The notes beneath the pieces are model-generated. The model saw nothing but the letters and a program-made list of their open reading frames with translations. It ran no database searches and was not told the DNA's origin. A stretch of DNA of 64,000 nt from Spirochaetota bacterium (GTDB lineage: Bacteria > Spirochaetota > GWB1-36-13 > JAKPDD01): contig JAKPDD010000023.1 of the NCBI GenBank assembly GCA_029552945.1, forward strand, positions 62,001 to 126,000. The letters run 5' to 3'. Below, piece after piece: positions 17,358 through 27,331 of this stretch; the stretch's first letter is position 1; the number at the start of each line of letters is the position of its first letter. The position numbers and the translations under genes were made by a program.

Positions 17358-18155
17358 ATGAGGTTTAAACTTATTTTTAATGTTAAAAAAGGGGTTATTA
17401 TTCCCTTTAATTACCACTATGAATTAGGGTCAGCTCTCTACAAAGTTTTTATGTACATTAAAAAGAACTCAAAATATCTTGGTATGGATAATACACAATT
17501 TTTAAACCATATTACATTTTCAAGGCTTGAAATACCACAGAGGGAAATAAGAAAAGATGGGATATTATCCCTTGGATGTAATGTTTTTCTAAAATTATCA
17601 CTGAATTTTCCAGATATAGGCACAGACCTATTATGGAAAGCTTTCCTTAAGTTTAATAACACTATACAAATAGTTAAAAAGACAGATGAAGAAATAAAAA
17701 AAATTGAACTTATACTAAAAGATATAAGCTTTTGTAATTCCCCTGAATTTAAAGAAAACATGAAGTTTAAAATGTTATCACCTCTTGTAATAACAAAAAA
17801 GGATGAAAAACCTAAATATGTTTCCATAAAAAATAAAGATAAATTAAAAGAATTATTGAAAGATAATTTACTAAAAAAGTTTGAAGAGTTGTATGGAAAA
17901 AAAATAGAAATAAATAACTTTGATATAGAGTTTGATGAAAATTATTGTAAATCAAGGGATGAAAAAGATCTTTATTCATTAATAACAATGAAGGAAGGAA
18001 CTAAAGAGCCTTTCTGGGTACTAGGTATATTGGCACCATTTGAACTTAAAGCACCAACTGAAATAATAAAAGTGGGATACTTTAGCGGATTTGGAGAAAA
18101 AACTTCTATGGGTTTTGGTATGGTTGAAACTGTTAAAGAAAATAATGAAGAATAA
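17358..18155 (+). CDS. cas6: CRISPR-associated endoribonuclease Cas6 (isolated)
   Basis: 265 aa RAMP protein. The N-terminal ferredoxin fold has VIIPFNYHYELGSALYKVF and FLNHITFSRLEIP. The C-terminal half has IKVGYFSGFGEKTSMGFGMVE, the glycine-rich loop characteristic of Cas6, which cuts precursor crRNA. His-51 just before ITFSRL and Tyr-19/His-20 are candidate catalytic residues, by analogy only. Ribosome-binding site CAGGAG lies eight bases before ATG. No other cas gene and no repeat array is in the window, so it would have to serve an array elsewhere or be a remnant; the frame is intact. Confidence 0.88.
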   Translation: MRFKLIFNVKKGVIIPFNYHYELGSALYKVFMYIKKNSKYLGMDNTQFLNHITFSRLEIPQREIRKDGILSLGCNVFLKLSLNFPDIGTDLLWKAFLKFNNTIQIVKKTDEEIKKIELILKDISFCNSPEFKENMKFKMLSPLVITKKDEKPKYVSIKNKDKLKELLKDNLLKKFEELYGKKIEINNFDIEFDENYCKSRDEKDLYSLITMKEGTKEPFWVLGILAPFELKAPTEIIKVGYFSGFGEKTSMGFGMVETVKENNEE

Positions 18156-19981: not shown

Positions 19982-20566
19982 CTAACTATTAAAATTAACA
20001 CTGGAATAATACAAATTTTTTACGATTCTTTTCAATTCTTTAATCGAAGGTCTATTAAAATGAAAAGGTATTTTAATAAAACTTAAATTTATATCTTTTA
20101 TAACTTCAATTCTATTTTTAGGAATACCAACAAAAACAAAACAAAGACCATAGACTTTAATAAAGTCCCTTATCATCTCTTTTGTTTCTCCGATAAAAAG
20201 TTTTAACTCCCTAAGTCTTATTCTTGATCCCAATCTTGATTTTCCTTTTTTCTTCAAATGTTTATCTTGGGACTTACCCTGTGTTTTCCTTACAGTATAT
20301 CTTTTTATTATTCTGTAATCTATAAGTTTATTCCACTTAAACACAGCCATTATAGATAAACCACTTCTTATCAATAAAAAAGAATAATAGCATTTTTGTT
20401 TTCTAAAACAGCCTAAATAAGAAATAACATTTTTTAAGATAAATGATGGAGTAATAATATATTTTCCTACTTTTATATCTTTATTCTTATTTATATGATA
20501 TTCTATTCCATTTTTTCCAATTATTTCAAATGCTTTTCTAAGCCCTATTTTAGAATGAGTTTTCAT
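19982..20566 (-). CDS. Vms1/ANKZF1-like release factor domain protein (bVLRF1-type)
   Basis: 194 aa. Residues about 88-190 closely follow the VLRF1 domain of eukaryotic Vms1/ANKZF1: RYTVRKTQGKSQ, then GKSRLGSRIRLRELKLF, and the closing IPFHFNRPSIKELKRIV. In yeast Vms1 a conserved Gln in GGSQ releases nascent chains from tRNA on stalled 60S subunits; Q100 in GKSQ sits at that place. The first ~80 residues are not recognised and may bind the ribosome. No zinc finger or ankyrin repeats are present. A bacterial ribosome-quality-control or peptidyl-tRNA role is inference. It overlaps panB by 17 bases. Confidence 0.75.
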   Translation of the reverse strand: MKTHSKIGLRKAFEIIGKNGIEYHINKNKDIKVGKYIITPSFILKNVISYLGCFRKQKCYYSFLLIRSGLSIMAVFKWNKLIDYRIIKRYTVRKTQGKSQDKHLKKKGKSRLGSRIRLRELKLFIGETKEMIRDFIKVYGLCFVFVGIPKNRIEVIKDINLSFIKIPFHFNRPSIKELKRIVKNLYYSSVNFNS

Positions 20567-21341
20567 CAGATGGAAACTTCACATCAATAACATCTTTTAT
20601 ATAATTATTTACAGCATTTTCTATATCTGAATATAGGTTAAGATACTTTTTATTGTGTTTAAAGTTTTCAGGATTCAGTCCTAACATATCATTTATGACC
20701 AGAACCTGGCCATCACAATAAGGGCCTGATCCTATGCCTATTGTTGGGATATTAATAGAATTGGTAATCTCTTTTGCAACATCTTTTTTAACAAGTTCAA
20801 GAACAATCGCAAAAGCACCTGATTCTTCAAGAATTTTTGCATTATTAACAAGTCTTTTTACCTCATCCTCTTTCTTACCAATAACCTTATATCCCCCCAT
20901 AGCATGAACAGATTGTGGTTGAAGTCCAATATGCCCCATAACCGGTATGCCGGCCTTAACTAACTTCTCAACTATCAGAGCTATCTCCTCACCACCTTCA
21001 AGTTTAACAGCATCACATAATCCCTCTTTCATTAAACGCCCAGCATTATTTATAGCATCGTTAATAGAGATTTGATAACTCATAAAAGGCATATCAGACA
21101 CTATAAGCTGGTTTTTACACCCTCTTTTAACTGCTTTCGTGTGATATATAATTTCATCAATTGTTACCGGCAAAGTTGTTTCATATCCAGAAAAAACATT
21201 TCCAACAGAATCACCAACTAATACAATATCAAGATCAGTATTATCAAAAATCCTTGCCATAGAATAATCATAGCATGTTAACATTGTTATCTTTCTTTTT
21301 CCCTTAAGTCCCCTTATAAAAGAGATTGTTTTCTTGTTCAT
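20550..21341 (-). CDS. panB: 3-methyl-2-oxobutanoate hydroxymethyltransferase
   Basis: 263 aa, full length. Adds a hydroxymethyl group from methylene-tetrahydrofolate to ketoisovalerate, the first step of pantothenate synthesis. Motifs: MLTCYDYSMARIFDNTDLDIVLVGDSVGN (start region, metal-binding Asp), SDMPFMSYQ, VKLEGGEE, GHIGLQPQSVHAMGGYKVIG and PTIGIGSGPYCDGQVLVINDMLG. panC and panD are not adjacent; instead the gene leads the VLRF1-like and MFS genes. Confidence 0.97.
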   Translation of the reverse strand: MNKKTISFIRGLKGKRKITMLTCYDYSMARIFDNTDLDIVLVGDSVGNVFSGYETTLPVTIDEIIYHTKAVKRGCKNQLIVSDMPFMSYQISINDAINNAGRLMKEGLCDAVKLEGGEEIALIVEKLVKAGIPVMGHIGLQPQSVHAMGGYKVIGKKEDEVKRLVNNAKILEESGAFAIVLELVKKDVAKEITNSINIPTIGIGSGPYCDGQVLVINDMLGLNPENFKHNKKYLNLYSDIENAVNNYIKDVIDVKFPSDENSF

Positions 21342-21455: not shown

Positions 21456-22703
21456 ATGTATAGTATAAAACTATTATCCCCTGCTGGTGATCTTCAAAAG
21501 GGTAAAATAGCCATTGATTATGGTGCTGACAGTGTATATATAGGTTATCCTGGTTTTTCTTTAAGAGCAACAAATACATCATTAGACGAGATAAAGAAAC
21601 TTACAGAATATGCTCATGAGAGAGGCAAAACAGTAATAGCAGCACTTAATATAATACCTAGAAATAATGATATAACCAGGTTTAAAGAGTTAATAAGTAG
21701 CATAAAGTATCTTGGTATCGATGGGGTAATAATCTCTGACATAGCACTTATAGAAATAACAAGAAAAAAGTATCCAGATATTCATATAACAGTATCCACT
21801 CAAGCAAACCTTACAAATTATAAAACAATAAAATTTTATGAAAAAAATTTTAATATAAATAGAGTTGTTCTTGCCAGAGAGCTTACTATTGATGAAGTAA
21901 AAAAAATAAGAGAGAAAGTATCAATTGAACTTGAATCATTCGTACACGGTGCAGTATGTATGGCATATTCAGGTAGATGCCTATTATCAAGTTTTTTGAC
22001 AAACAAAAAACTTGGTATGACACATATAAAGTATGCAGATAATTATACAAGGTATTCAAACCTTGGTGAATGTGTTCAACCATGTAGATTTAAATTTGCT
22101 CTTGTCGAAGAAAATAGAAAAGATATAATGTTTCCAATTGAAGAAGACTCATTTGGTACGTACATACTAAGTGCAAAAGACTTATGCTTAATAAATAGAT
22201 TAAAAGAGATGTATGACGCTGGAATTACAACTTTTAAAATAGAAGGAAGAATGAAAAGTATATATTACATTGCTAATATAACAAGAGTGTACAGAAAAGG
22301 ACTTGACCTTATGATTAAAGGCGAAAAAATGCCAGAAAATTATAAAAATGAGGTATTTAACGTAAGTCATAGAGGATACACAGAAGGTTTTCTATTCAAT
22401 GAAAAAGAAAAAACAAATGTTTCATACTCAGGTTATATAACAAATTATAGATTTCATGCCCTCATAAAAGAAAAAATAGAAGCAAACAGCTATAAAATAG
22501 AAGTTTTTAACTCATTTACTGATGACAAAGAGATAGAGATAATTGGCCCTGATATGATTAACATAATCCTTAGGCCTGGTGAATATGAATTATATACAAG
22601 TGGGAAAGAAAAAGTCAAAAGAGTATTTCATGGAAACACAGAATTTTTTATAAAAACATCAGTACCTTTAAAAGAGAATTACATTATAAGGATAAAAAAA
22701 TGA
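21456..22703 (+). CDS. Peptidase U32 family protein (TrhP/YegQ-like tRNA hydroxylation type)
   Basis: 415 aa. Opens with LLSPAGDLQKGKIAIDYGADSVYIG and carries the U32 signature ELESFVHGAVCMAYSGRCLLSSF, with cysteines (also GECVQPCRFKF) that in characterised members hold an iron-sulphur cluster, then ILSAKDLCLINRL and FKIEGRMKS. Members thought to be proteases now include TrhP (tRNA uridine 5-hydroxylation) and RlhA (23S rRNA); length and order favour a TrhP-like role. Its TGA overlaps the next gene's ATG, making it the first of five coupled genes. Confidence 0.85.
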   Translation: MYSIKLLSPAGDLQKGKIAIDYGADSVYIGYPGFSLRATNTSLDEIKKLTEYAHERGKTVIAALNIIPRNNDITRFKELISSIKYLGIDGVIISDIALIEITRKKYPDIHITVSTQANLTNYKTIKFYEKNFNINRVVLARELTIDEVKKIREKVSIELESFVHGAVCMAYSGRCLLSSFLTNKKLGMTHIKYADNYTRYSNLGECVQPCRFKFALVEENRKDIMFPIEEDSFGTYILSAKDLCLINRLKEMYDAGITTFKIEGRMKSIYYIANITRVYRKGLDLMIKGEKMPENYKNEVFNVSHRGYTEGFLFNEKEKTNVSYSGYITNYRFHALIKEKIEANSYKIEVFNSFTDDKEIEIIGPDMINIILRPGEYELYTSGKEKVKRVFHGNTEFFIKTSVPLKENYIIRIKK

Positions 22704-22876
22704 AACTTTTAACTTTGATATTAATAGTATTAAATATTTTCCCTTCTGTAATAATTATATTTAATAAATCTAGATTAATTTTAGGATTGCCATTAATTTT
22801 TTTTTACATTATTGTAACGTCTTTAATTATATTAGTAGTATTAAATATTTACTTCAATAAAAAAGGTATTAAATGA
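22700..22876 (+). CDS. 58-residue membrane peptide, DUF3311-like symporter partner
   Basis: Small gene joined at both ends by ATGA overlaps: its ATG lies in the U32 stop and its TGA overlaps the ATG of the symporter-kinase. The product has two membrane helices joined by NKSRLILGLPLIFFY, which resembles the short DUF3311 proteins (P..YN.....GLPFFY) that accompany sodium/solute symporters such as PanF-type carriers. The next protein has a symporter-type N-terminal half, which supports the match. Likely a small subunit for that module. Confidence 0.75.
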   Translation: MKLLTLILIVLNIFPSVIIIFNKSRLILGLPLIFFYIIVTSLIILVVLNIYFNKKGIK

Positions 22877-25698
22877 TATCCATACTATCACTCCTATTAT
22901 ATCTTATGATTATGTTTATTGTTTTAAGATTTTTAAGAAAAACAAAAAAAATAATAAAAATTAAATCATGGATATATGGCCTTGCTATGCCATCCAGTTT
23001 TTTAACAGGCTGGGCATTTTTAGGTATGTCTGAGTCCTTTATAAAAACAGACCTTACTTTTATAAGTTTCTATTTTGGCATAATACTGTTTTCTCCAATA
23101 CTCCCATTTTTGATCGAAAAAATTAATAGACTAATAATTCAAAAAGACATAAATGATATTGTTTCATTTTTACATAAAAACTTTTGTTCTGACAAGTTTA
23201 TAAAAATTTTAACTCTAATCATTATTTCTACTATTGGAATTGTTTATTGTTTTATAAATGTTAAAACTCTTTTTTTATTATTTGGAGAAAATATATATAT
23301 TTTTGGCTTAAGTATTATAATAATCTTAATATTCATATTCACACTTAAAGACTGGGATGTGATAACATCAGTAGCTTTTCAAGGCATAATAATGATAGTA
23401 TCTTTTCTCATAATAGGGATCTTTCTTATTTCAAAACATTTTAACAGTATAGGAGACTTATTTAACACTATACTGAAAAATGATCCACAAAAACTTATTG
23501 TGAATAATACAGACATTTTAAGCCAATGGAATATTAACATAATTACAACTTTATTTGCTTATCTTTTTTTGCCACGGCAATTTTCAATACTTGTCCAAGC
23601 AAGGGATCTTACTTCAAAAGAAAAATCTACAAAGATAATTTTAGCAAGTACTATATTTTTTCTAATTTACGTACTTATAAATCTTATTATTTCATCAGTT
23701 TTTTATTTAAAAGTTGGGAATATAGATATTAAAATACTTGATTTTATAAAAGAATATGGTATTGTTATTAATGTAATATTTCTTATAAGCGGTTTATCGT
23801 TTATTTTATCTACTTTTAATCAACAGGTAGTAGCATTTTCAAAAATATTTGAAAATAATATTAACTTAAATAAATATATACCTTTATCAATATTTTTCAT
23901 TTTTATATTTTTAATGTTTCCTTTAATGGAAAACATTTATATAAGCCAGTTAGGTACATTCTGTTTTTCATCTTTATTTACTTTAATAATACCTATCCTT
24001 TTTATAATATTATCTAGAAATAGTGAAAAATTAATAAACCCGACTAGATTTTCCTTATTATTTTCATTTATTTCTATACTATTAATGTTTATATCACTTA
24101 TATCTGACCCAAATAATTTTACAATACAAAAATATGAAAACAGTTTTATTCAATTTATAAGATCAATATCAATAAACAATAATTATTTCTTTTCATTATT
24201 CTTATATCCTAATCTATTATCAATAATATTTTTTGGGCTGGAATTATACTCTATAAAAAAAGCTGCAAATGTTAATAAAGTTTATTCGCAAATTGATTAC
24301 CTTACAATAATAGATAAAATTTCTCGATTTTTCGATTACAACTTTTATCTTATATCTCTTTTTGCATTTTTCTACAATAACAGAAACTCAGAGTTTACAA
24401 TATTAGAAATAAAAGAATTATACCCAATAGAAAATATTGAAAAAAATATAGACATCCTTATAAAAAAAGGAGTAATTAAAGAATCAAAATTTGGGATTGA
24501 TTCATTCAAATATAATAATTCTTTTTTAATACCTGATATAAATGTGAAAAACCTTGCTGAATTTATAAAAACATTTCTTTTTACAAGAAGTCTTCTAGTA
24601 AGTGTTGAAAACGATTTTAAAAAAGAGAAAGAGGTCTATAAAGAAAAAATAGATATAATGAATAAAGCATATAAGGCATATATAAAACTAAGTAGAATAA
24701 AGAATACAAAAACTTTAATAAAAAATATGAGTAAAGTTCTACCTTATGTTGACAGTAATCTCCTTAAAATAGAATATATAAAAAATAAAAAAGCTAAAGT
24801 ATTATATCAAAGCCACTATTTTTCAAATGAAAGCACTATATTTCCCATAAACATAGGTAAAAACAGAACAATAAACATATACCTTGATACACCTGCAAGC
24901 ACAGAATTATGGTTTTATCTGGAGCCAATAATACATAGTTTTTATAAAAACGCAAAATATATAGACAAGATAAAAAAATATTTAATAAAAATTCAGGCAC
25001 TTGAAAAAATAAAAAGCTTTTTATTATCAAATATATCGCATGAGATAAGAACACCTCTTACACCTATAAAAGGTTATATAAGTTTTCTAAAAACATGTGA
25101 CATAGTAAAAAAGGAGGAACTAAAAGAAGCTCTGGATACTATGGAAGAAAGTTATAAAAGACTTGAAAAAATAATCAATAATATAACCGAGATAAAAAAC
25201 ATAAATATAGAAGAAAAAATAAAAAGCAATATTAACGAGGTCATTAGTATAAAAAACCTTTTAGATGTAGTCATAAATGATAATATAAATAATATTAATA
25301 AAAAAAATATAGAGCTTATAAATAATTTAAACGATACTAAAAATGAAAAAAAAGTTTTAGGAGATTTTAGAAAACTTAGAATAGCATTAAATGCAATACT
25401 GGATAATGCTATAAAGTTTAATAGAGATAATGGTAAAATATTTATAGATACTTTTGAAAAAAATGATTTTATAGTAATAAAGATAGAAGATACAGGTATA
25501 GGAATGTCTAGAGATGATATAAAAAAAGCTTTTGAAATATTTTTTCAAAAAGAATTGAACGATAAAAAAAGATATGAGGGACTTGGATTAGGATTAAGCA
25601 TAGCAAAAGAGGTATTAAAAAAACTAAATGGGAAGATAAAAATAAAATCAAAAGAAAATAAAGGAACAAAAGTATACATATATCTTAAAAAACCATGA
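22873..25698 (+). CDS. Sodium/solute symporter-histidine kinase fusion (CbrA-like sensor kinase)
   Basis: 941 aa. Residues about 1-440 form some 12-13 membrane helices of the sodium:solute symporter fold (for example SSFLTGWAFLGMSESF near residues 37-52, FLPRQFSILVQARD near 230). Residues ~490-640 are a soluble linker of unknown fold. The kinase core follows: H723 in LLSNISHEIRTPLTPIKGY, N box in ILDNAIKFN, DTGIGMS and GLGLGLSIAKEVL. Like CbrA, it may sense by transport or binding of a solute. No response regulator is adjacent. It is coupled by ATGA to the DUF3311-like peptide and to the MlaF-like ATPase. Confidence 0.88.
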   Translation: MISILSLLLYLMIMFIVLRFLRKTKKIIKIKSWIYGLAMPSSFLTGWAFLGMSESFIKTDLTFISFYFGIILFSPILPFLIEKINRLIIQKDINDIVSFLHKNFCSDKFIKILTLIIISTIGIVYCFINVKTLFLLFGENIYIFGLSIIIILIFIFTLKDWDVITSVAFQGIIMIVSFLIIGIFLISKHFNSIGDLFNTILKNDPQKLIVNNTDILSQWNINIITTLFAYLFLPRQFSILVQARDLTSKEKSTKIILASTIFFLIYVLINLIISSVFYLKVGNIDIKILDFIKEYGIVINVIFLISGLSFILSTFNQQVVAFSKIFENNINLNKYIPLSIFFIFIFLMFPLMENIYISQLGTFCFSSLFTLIIPILFIILSRNSEKLINPTRFSLLFSFISILLMFISLISDPNNFTIQKYENSFIQFIRSISINNNYFFSLFLYPNLLSIIFFGLELYSIKKAANVNKVYSQIDYLTIIDKISRFFDYNFYLISLFAFFYNNRNSEFTILEIKELYPIENIEKNIDILIKKGVIKESKFGIDSFKYNNSFLIPDINVKNLAEFIKTFLFTRSLLVSVENDFKKEKEVYKEKIDIMNKAYKAYIKLSRIKNTKTLIKNMSKVLPYVDSNLLKIEYIKNKKAKVLYQSHYFSNESTIFPINIGKNRTINIYLDTPASTELWFYLEPIIHSFYKNAKYIDKIKKYLIKIQALEKIKSFLLSNISHEIRTPLTPIKGYISFLKTCDIVKKEELKEALDTMEESYKRLEKIINNITEIKNINIEEKIKSNINEVISIKNLLDVVINDNINNINKKNIELINNLNDTKNEKKVLGDFRKLRIALNAILDNAIKFNRDNGKIFIDTFEKNDFIVIKIEDTGIGMSRDDIKKAFEIFFQKELNDKKRYEGLGLGLSIAKEVLKKLNGKIKIKSKENKGTKVYIYLKKP

Positions 25699-26438
25699 TA
25701 AAAATAGAAAACTTGTACACAATACTTGAAGATAACATAATACATAAAAATATATCATTAACAGTAGATAAAGGTAAGACAACAGTTATAATAGGAAGAA
25801 GTGGTTGTGGAAAGAGCGTATTGTTAAAAGTAATACTTATGCTAATAAAGCCAGCTAGCGGAAAAATATTTTTTGAAAATCAAGACTTAACAAAACTTAA
25901 TGAAGAGGAAATAAAAAATATAAGGCTTAAAATGGGAGTTGTTTTTCAGGGTTCAGCTTTATTTGATTCATTAACAGTTTATGAGAATGTTGCTTTTGGT
26001 CTTTTAAAAATAAAAAAAATACCTGAAAAAAAAGCGTTAGAAATAGCAAGAGAACTTTTAGAATGGGTCGGGCTAAAAAACATAGAATATAAATACCCAG
26101 GACAATTATCAGGTGGCATGAGGAAAAGAGTTGGAATAGCAAGAGCATTATCAATGAACCCAGACATAATAATATTTGATGAACCGACAACAGGACTTGA
26201 TCCTGTTATGACAGATGTAATAGATAATCTTGTAAATAGACTTAAGACAGAAAAAAAAATCACATCACTTGTAGTTACTCATGATATGAAAAGTGCTTAT
26301 AAAATAGGTGATTATATATATATGATGGAAAAAGGTGAAATAGTAGGAGAAGGAACTATAGAGGAAATAAAAAACAGTAGCAACCCTATGATAAAACAAT
26401 TTATAGAGGGTAAAGCTGAGGGACCAATAAAAATATGA
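25695..26438 (+). CDS. ABC transporter ATPase, MlaF-type (phospholipid/MCE system)
   Basis: 247 aa. Walker A IIGRSGCGKSVLLK, Q loop VVFQGSALFDSLTVYENVAFGL (the SALFDSLTV text is characteristic of the MlaF group), signature LSGGMRKRVGIARAL and Walker B DIIIFDEPTTGLDP, then VVTHDM. MlaF powers lipid movement between inner and outer membranes. The expected permease MlaE is not here; the ATPase is followed directly by an MCE protein. Both boundaries are ATGA overlaps. Confidence 0.92.
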   Translation: MIKIENLYTILEDNIIHKNISLTVDKGKTTVIIGRSGCGKSVLLKVILMLIKPASGKIFFENQDLTKLNEEEIKNIRLKMGVVFQGSALFDSLTVYENVAFGLLKIKKIPEKKALEIARELLEWVGLKNIEYKYPGQLSGGMRKRVGIARALSMNPDIIIFDEPTTGLDPVMTDVIDNLVNRLKTEKKITSLVVTHDMKSAYKIGDYIYMMEKGEIVGEGTIEEIKNSSNPMIKQFIEGKAEGPIKI

Positions 26439-27331
26439 AAACAGAATTAAAAGTTGGAATATTTGTATTTGTAAGTTTTATAATACTACTAATAATACTG
26501 GCATACTTAGGAAGAAGTTCCCTTAATGTTGAGGGGAGAGAATATTATATAGAGTTCAATTCTATAAACGATCTTAAAAAAGGAGCTGAAGTAAAGTTTG
26601 GTGGTGGAATATTAATAGGATATGTAAGAGATATATGGATCTCTGGGAATAAAATAAAAATGAAGTTATGGATAAGAAAAGACTTTCAAATAACCAATAA
26701 ACATGTTTTTTCAATATCTGCTGAAGGTGTTTTAGGAGAAAAATATATAAATGTAGTATACCAAGAATCTGATGAAAAACTAGAAATATTTGCGGAAGGA
26801 GTAACAATTAAAGGGAAAGATAGTGTAAGTTTTAATGATACTTTGAATGAGATATACACTCTCGTAAAGAGTTTAAGAGATACTGTTGATAATGTAAATT
26901 ATATAGTAGAAGGTCTTGCTAAAAAGAAAAGTATAGAAAAAATAAGTAATGCTACAGTAAAAATACTATCTGAAACACAGGATATTATAAGCCAAAACAA
27001 AGAAAACATAACTGCAATACTAAACGAAGTAGTTGAAGGTGCAAAAGGGCTTAACGTAACCTTAAATAAGAGCTTGCCCAATCTACTTAAAACAACAACA
27101 ACCTCTATAAACAAAATATCAACAAATATAGATGAATCTGTTGCATTAATTAAAGATATATTAGAAACAATAAAAACAAAAGAGAGTGTAATAAATACAT
27201 TACTATATGATAAAGAATCAGCAAAAAATATTAAAACTTCAATAAGCAACTTAAAAAAAATAATCGATTCACTTGAATACTCTTTAAAAAGATTTGATTC
27301 CAAATCAAAAGATAAAAACGAAATATGGTAA
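26435..27331 (+). CDS. MlaD-like MCE-domain lipid-transport protein
   Basis: 298 aa. One N-terminal membrane anchor (about 7-25) is followed by the MCE domain (about 35-115): FNSINDLKKGAEVKFGGGILIGYV and AEGVLGEKYINV. The rest is a long alpha-helical or coiled region rich in Lys/Ser/Thr/Asn (about 130-298) that in larger MCE proteins forms a periplasmic tube or needle. It would be the periplasmic substrate-binding part of the system energised by the upstream ATPase. Last gene of the five-gene coupled operon. Confidence 0.9.
   Translation: MKTELKVGIFVFVSFIILLIILAYLGRSSLNVEGREYYIEFNSINDLKKGAEVKFGGGILIGYVRDIWISGNKIKMKLWIRKDFQITNKHVFSISAEGVLGEKYINVVYQESDEKLEIFAEGVTIKGKDSVSFNDTLNEIYTLVKSLRDTVDNVNYIVEGLAKKKSIEKISNATVKILSETQDIISQNKENITAILNEVVEGAKGLNVTLNKSLPNLLKTTTTSINKISTNIDESVALIKDILETIKTKESVINTLLYDKESAKNIKTSISNLKKIIDSLEYSLKRFDSKSKDKNEIW

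Follow-up and report, generated by a model that had tools for sequence, protein, structure and literature searches.

Organization of the locus

The window, by which we mean the whole 64,000-nucleotide stretch analysed here from the genome of a Spirochaetota bacterium (G000), carries a run of five plus-strand genes, hereafter the unit, next to a divergently oriented panB.

20550–21341, minus strand: panB, divergent neighbour, not counted into the unit (69% identity to the panB beside U32 in the comparison genome G001)
21456–22703, plus strand: U32-family protein, TrhP-like, 415 aa (Peptidase_U32, E 1.5e-83; U32_C, E 1.4e-8)
22700–22876, plus strand: CbrX-like two-helix membrane peptide, 58 aa (two hydrophobic helices; similarity to a small ORF of genome G020)
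22873–25698, plus strand: SLC5-type transceptor histidine kinase, 941 aa (hhalign of the N-terminus; HisKA and HATPase_c)
25695–26438, plus strand: MlaF-type ABC ATPase, 247 aa (ABC_tran, E 8e-38; MlaF model, E 4.9e-58)
26435–27331, plus strand: MlaD, 298 aa (MlaD domain, E 2.6e-11)

All five open reading frames start with ATG. They lie exactly where an earlier sequence-only reading of this DNA placed them, and, as described there, neighbouring genes share ATGA, a 4-base overlap, at all four junctions. The overlaps show what appears to be a tight operon, with the five genes probably carried on a common transcript; a promoter scan gave no more sites than are found in shuffled sequences. The same reading had deduced from the ATGA junctions a synthesis of the proteins in fixed ratio, a deduction that we do not retain: an overlap alone does not imply a ratio, and the window has seven further 4-base overlaps outside the unit, so that such junctions are ordinary for this genome and the fixed ratio is unproven. 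By eye, sequences resembling ribosome-binding sites precede the starts of the small-peptide and kinase genes, and none is obvious before mlaF, the translation of which may therefore depend on coupling. The mlaF start of G001 has GGAGG upstream, indicating that the missing site is not a conserved trait.

The nearest curated model of the U32 protein is NCBIfam TrhP, which it matches with 292 bits and without reaching the equivalog cut-off of 534; the gene probably codes for a TrhP-like tRNA uridine hydroxylation enzyme. On the far side of the unit's neighbour panB, and overlapping it, lies a gene for a protein resembling bVLRF1, of the Bacteroidetes release factor family (19982–20566, minus strand, E 2e-17). 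A Cas6-type CRISPR RNA endonuclease is encoded at 17358–18155 on the plus strand (PADLOC Cas6b, E 2.6e-37), and the 64-kb window shows no evident CRISPR array.

Conservation of the unit

The comparison genome G001, the only other genome of the order that we examined, belongs to a different family and carries the same block: panB divergent from U32, then a 64-aa transmembrane peptide, the positional counterpart of the 58-aa one, a 971-aa SLC5-type kinase, mlaF and mlaD. Its successive junctions are an 8-base overlap, a 1-base gap, an 8-base overlap and a 4-base overlap. The identities measured by blastp between the window and G001 are, besides that of panB, 52% for U32, 30% for the kinase, 62% for mlaF and 45% for mlaD. 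Ferritin, considered as an additional common neighbour, was discarded since blastp found no match for it when the loci were compared. When three control loci (mlaE1, mlaE2 and mlaC) were compared in the same way between the two genomes, only the dnaB-mlaE pair was retained. As the unit is kept while control-locus synteny is lost, the linkage is real, being either selected or slow to break. The gene order is thus conserved in the one relative of the order available to us, and the conservation is to be read as that of a small sample, two genomes carrying the unit.

Searching 393 genomes of the phylum with the N-terminus of the kinase brought responses from the window genome, G001 and G020 only, and the G020 kinase adjoins a receiver gene and a symporter, not mla genes. 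Such a kinase beside mlaF and mlaD was therefore found in G001 and nowhere else among these 393 genomes, in which the unit is restricted to one order.

A diverged symporter-type sensor kinase

The layout of the 941-aa protein is the following.

residues ~1–463: SLC5-like transmembrane domain
residues ~488–550: predicted winged helix, followed by a helix
residues ~610–690: predicted GAF-like domain
residues 714–774: HisKA
residues 830–940: HATPase_c

Pfam recognizes only HisKA (E 1.2e-15) and HATPase_c (E 1.2e-22) in this protein; both are intact, and kinase activity may be expected of it. The symporter part is not matched by the Pfam SSF model. It emerges instead from profile-profile comparison: over 452 columns, hhalign matches the N-terminal ~460 residues of the kinases from the window and from G001 to three canonical SLC5 kinases of the phylum at a probability of 98.7 and a P-value of 1.9e-16, and the controls, an MFS protein and two plain symporters, remain below a probability of 2. 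The canonical SLC5-kinase of G020 matches PDB entry 10ed, an SLC5-STAC structure, with an E-value of 3e-73; this entry is probably CbrA, in view of its size, of the name histidine kinase that it bears and of the SLC5-kinase match. The window kinase alone also has 10ed as its first PDB match, with an E-value of 0.08 in a single-sequence search, and a profile of the N-terminus built from two sequences found nothing in the PDB at E up to 1. Reciprocal genome searches join the window kinase and a canonical SLC5-kinase (E 2.5e-9 and 8.8e-9), the identity to one canonical member being about 21%. Together, the hhalign, 10ed and reciprocal matches identify the window protein as a much diverged SLC5-type kinase, in agreement with its earlier designation as a symporter-type sensor kinase that has a partner peptide. 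Only kinase-domain matches were obtained when the genome contigs were searched with this protein, as well as in a plasmid collection among the matches listed.

The middle region (residues 464–712) holds no detectable STAC domain, an identity that we considered and abandoned after hhalign against the STAC of canonical members gave a probability of 0.2. An AlphaFold2 model of the entire kinase reached a pLDDT of 37 and was not usable. The model of the middle region, built from two sequences, has a pLDDT of 76.5, with values of about 78–93 across most of the first domain, and displays in order a winged helix (H-E-H-H-E-E), a long helix and a GAF-like domain. Foldseek pairs this region with MarR/TrmB-type winged helices, several of them at target TM scores of 0.41–0.51, and with GAF proteins at 0.38–0.47, no match to either fold being better than E 0.001. 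A winged helix and a GAF-like domain are thus likely, not proven, occupants of the place of STAC.

The peptide encoded upstream of the kinase had been described as DUF3311-like. This identity was ruled out by the missing Pfam match to DUF3311 (none up to E 1); the best Pfam match, DUF4212, is insignificant at E 0.16, and local alignment shows no similarity between the peptide and the DUF4212 one of G020. It is significantly related to the 82-aa open reading frame preceding the canonical SLC5-kinase of G020, with an alignment score of 69 as compared with a shuffle mean of 36 and with none of 1000 shuffles equalling it. The layout, 58 residues with two hydrophobic segments and a 4-nt overlap with the start of the kinase gene, fits that of CbrX, and no CbrX chain was matched in the PDB sequence set. 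By its sequence and layout, the peptide is a putative CbrX-like partner of the SLC5-kinase. A C-terminal segment resembling the two-helix peptide, as if fused, is seen in a plain sodium/solute symporter of 546 aa in another genome (G038, locus L155).

There is no receiver domain in the 64-kb window, and the absence of a response regulator from the unit, held earlier to be unusual, is confirmed. Elsewhere in the genome there are 31 receiver-domain matches. Among the positions listed, at least five of the 31 have a P0003-like kinase within 4 kb, and the receiver at C30:207427 adjoins another kinase-like gene beyond these five; the lack of a linked regulator is consequently no strong oddity. The window kinase would transfer its phosphate to an unlinked regulator.

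MlaF, MlaD and the dispersed Mla components

The match of the window MlaF to the phospholipid MlaF model lies below the equivalog cut-off. In a whole-genome search, the next-best ATPase scores 121 bits, as compared with 525 bits for the query itself. MlaD has an MCE domain, a single N-terminal transmembrane helix and a long helical C-terminus, and is the only MlaD of the genome. Two MlaE proteins are encoded outside the unit, MlaE1 at C2, where its gene overlaps dnaB by 4 bases (G000:C2, L012 3161–5298), and MlaE2 at C16, matching the Pfam MlaE model with E-values of 3.7e-74 and 6.0e-55, respectively. The latter is diverged and encoded by a lone gene with no evident mlaF or mlaD next to it, both in the window genome (G000:C16, L013 3955–4740) and in G001 (G001:C145, L087 2770–3564). 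A single, lone mlaC gene is found at G000:C3:25454–25864 (E 1e-24). A check for a complete mla operon elsewhere in the genome was negative, with one MlaD and no close second MlaF. The sole clear mlaF and mlaD, taken with the lone mlaC elsewhere, thus probably complete one scattered MlaFEDC transporter; with the unlinked MlaE and MlaC, MlaF and MlaD would probably form the only MCE lipid transporter detected in the genome.

Such dispersal is frequent in the phylum. In the survey over 100 relatives, MlaE is missing within 3.5 kb of 66 of the 150 MlaD matches listed, and an MlaE-MlaD pair is absent altogether from 32 of the genomes that gave a match. The mlaF gene often stands alone at a third locus, and in the relatives whose loci were read neither mlaF nor mlaD lies beside a related kinase or U32. 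Directly beside dnaB stand 12 of the 20 mlaE genes whose loci were examined, mostly unpaired ones; including the window genome, this adjacency is present in 13 genomes from nine families (L012, L086, L088–L094, L097, L098, L100 and L105) and represents a conserved pairing in the phylum. The sequence-only reading was right that the unit has no mlaE but saw a peculiarity in it; with two copies elsewhere in the genome and mlaE behind dnaB in at least nine families, a missing mlaE is normal, and we rejected it as a sign of a special system. At the two loci whose neighbour was read, an orphan mlaD is followed by a radA-like gene with a zinc-finger start (L067 2105–4324 and L068 1862–4089), and a similar neighbour of 440–450 aa is seen in other families. 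The frequent separation of mlaE from mlaFD and its tie to dnaB matter for pipelines that find MlaF by synteny only.

Possible roles of the unit

We consider it somewhat more probable than its opposite that the unit, as a whole, is a lineage-specific conserved operon for a transceptor, in which mlaF and mlaD are co-supplied through shared expression and each protein would do the usual job of its family. The symporter-fold membrane domain, held by the CbrX-like peptide, would set, together with the cytoplasmic winged-helix/GAF-like module, the autokinase activity, and the phosphate would pass from the kinase to an unlinked response regulator. MlaF and MlaD, translated from the same mRNA, would join the dnaB-linked MlaE1 and the unlinked MlaC. 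The linkage of the kinase with mlaFD would then reflect shared expression and not a kinase that controls Mla directly. That the genes have separate functions and share a promoter seems more likely than the kinase-Mla switch proposed earlier, which is possible; a link between kinase and Mla is deduced from the gene order, its sole basis. The retention of the kinase beside mlaFD over an order-level distance, amid lost synteny, would also be expected from a functional link.

A dedicated sensor-effector system is a serious alternative, though one that we find rather unlikely: the transceptor would sense a solute or the lipid state of the membrane and control outer-membrane lipid traffic, through a regulator acting on the operon or through direct contact with MlaFED. 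The linkage surviving between two families while other synteny vanishes speaks for it, as does the absence of a complete mla operon elsewhere in the genome, but no regulator, operator, binding site or contact was identified, the unit was not found beyond one order in the 393 genomes, and the relatives read keep mlaF and mlaD apart from a related kinase or U32. The window mlaF, without a clear ribosome-binding site, may depend for its translation on the kinase gene, a point in favour, against which stands the GGAGG of G001. An operon formed by accident in a compact, AT-rich genome, with housekeeping genes under a common promoter and a kinase unrelated to its neighbours, is unlikely. It would explain the presence of a tRNA-modification-like U32 gene and panB in the same block, and it suits a window rich in 4-base overlaps and a phylum whose mla genes lie scattered beside unrelated ones such as dnaB; the accident and its overlaps must, however, have outlasted an order-level split that erased the synteny of mlaE2 and mlaC. 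It is highly improbable that MlaF and MlaD pair mainly with the diverged MlaE2 of C16, which is retained as a lone gene in both genomes, rather than with the dnaB-linked MlaE1, which is better conserved in G001 (64% versus 54%), nearer to the Pfam model and widespread in the phylum.

Beyond the transceptor operon that we favour, the kinase might represent a new class of transceptors (SLC5, winged helix, GAF-like domain and kinase), reading a solute or the lipid state of the membrane and tuning the production or activity of MlaFD directly; we judge this quite unlikely. If true, it would place a dedicated sensor inside an MCE lipid transporter operon. To our knowledge, the regulation of MCE/Mla lipid transport is poorly known, and a literature search on linkage between a kinase and mlaD gave nothing relevant among the titles listed. 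A conserved operon in which a transceptor kinase accompanies a genome's sole mlaF and mlaD offers a concrete and testable candidate for such regulation. The replacement of STAC by a winged-helix/GAF-like module, if real, bears on the signal path from symporter-fold sensors to kinases.

Comparison with known systems

In the Mla/MCE transporter (MlaFEDB-C), as here, an MlaF ATPase and an MlaD MCE protein are encoded in F-D order, and MlaE and MlaC are present in the genome; the window genome differs in having mlaE and mlaC at separate loci and mlaF and mlaD behind a sensor kinase. A study of Veillonella inferred MlaEFD as the ancestral core, with MlaC sparse (PMC10665443).

The first half of the unit has a precedent in Pseudomonas, where cbrX codes for a peptide of about 58 aa and overlaps cbrA, the translation of which is coupled to it (PMC6591292); CbrX co-purifies with CbrA and is bound to its SLC5 domain in a cryo-EM structure (PMC13022988). 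A small peptide with a symporter-kinase is thus already a known kind, and the window shares with it an SLC5 membrane domain fused to a histidine kinase and, upstream and overlapping, the gene of a 58-aa two-helix peptide. The overlap is 17 nt in cbrX/cbrA and 4 nt in the window. CbrA has the architecture SLC5-STAC-PAS-histidine kinase, whereas the window kinase has no detectable STAC and a predicted winged helix and GAF-like domain there; it also differs by the lack of a linked response regulator and by the mlaF and mlaD genes downstream.

CrbS/R and RpuS/R likewise have a symporter domain fused to a kinase. RpuS/R, a third SLC5/STAC system, is near a DUF3311 gene (PMC9100948), and its nearby genes for small symporter-subunit-like proteins recall the peptide-kinase pair of the window. 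Unlike the window kinase, both systems have STAC and an adjacent LuxR-type regulator and govern acetate or pyruvate use. With the DUF3311 and DUF4212 small symporter subunits, the 58-aa peptide shares the short two-helix form and a GxP...Y motif, of which the plain symporter of G038 has a similar version at its end, but it has no significant Pfam match. The kinase is unusual in being a very diverged SLC5-type transceptor without detectable STAC, and the second oddity of the unit is its stable linkage with mlaF and mlaD.
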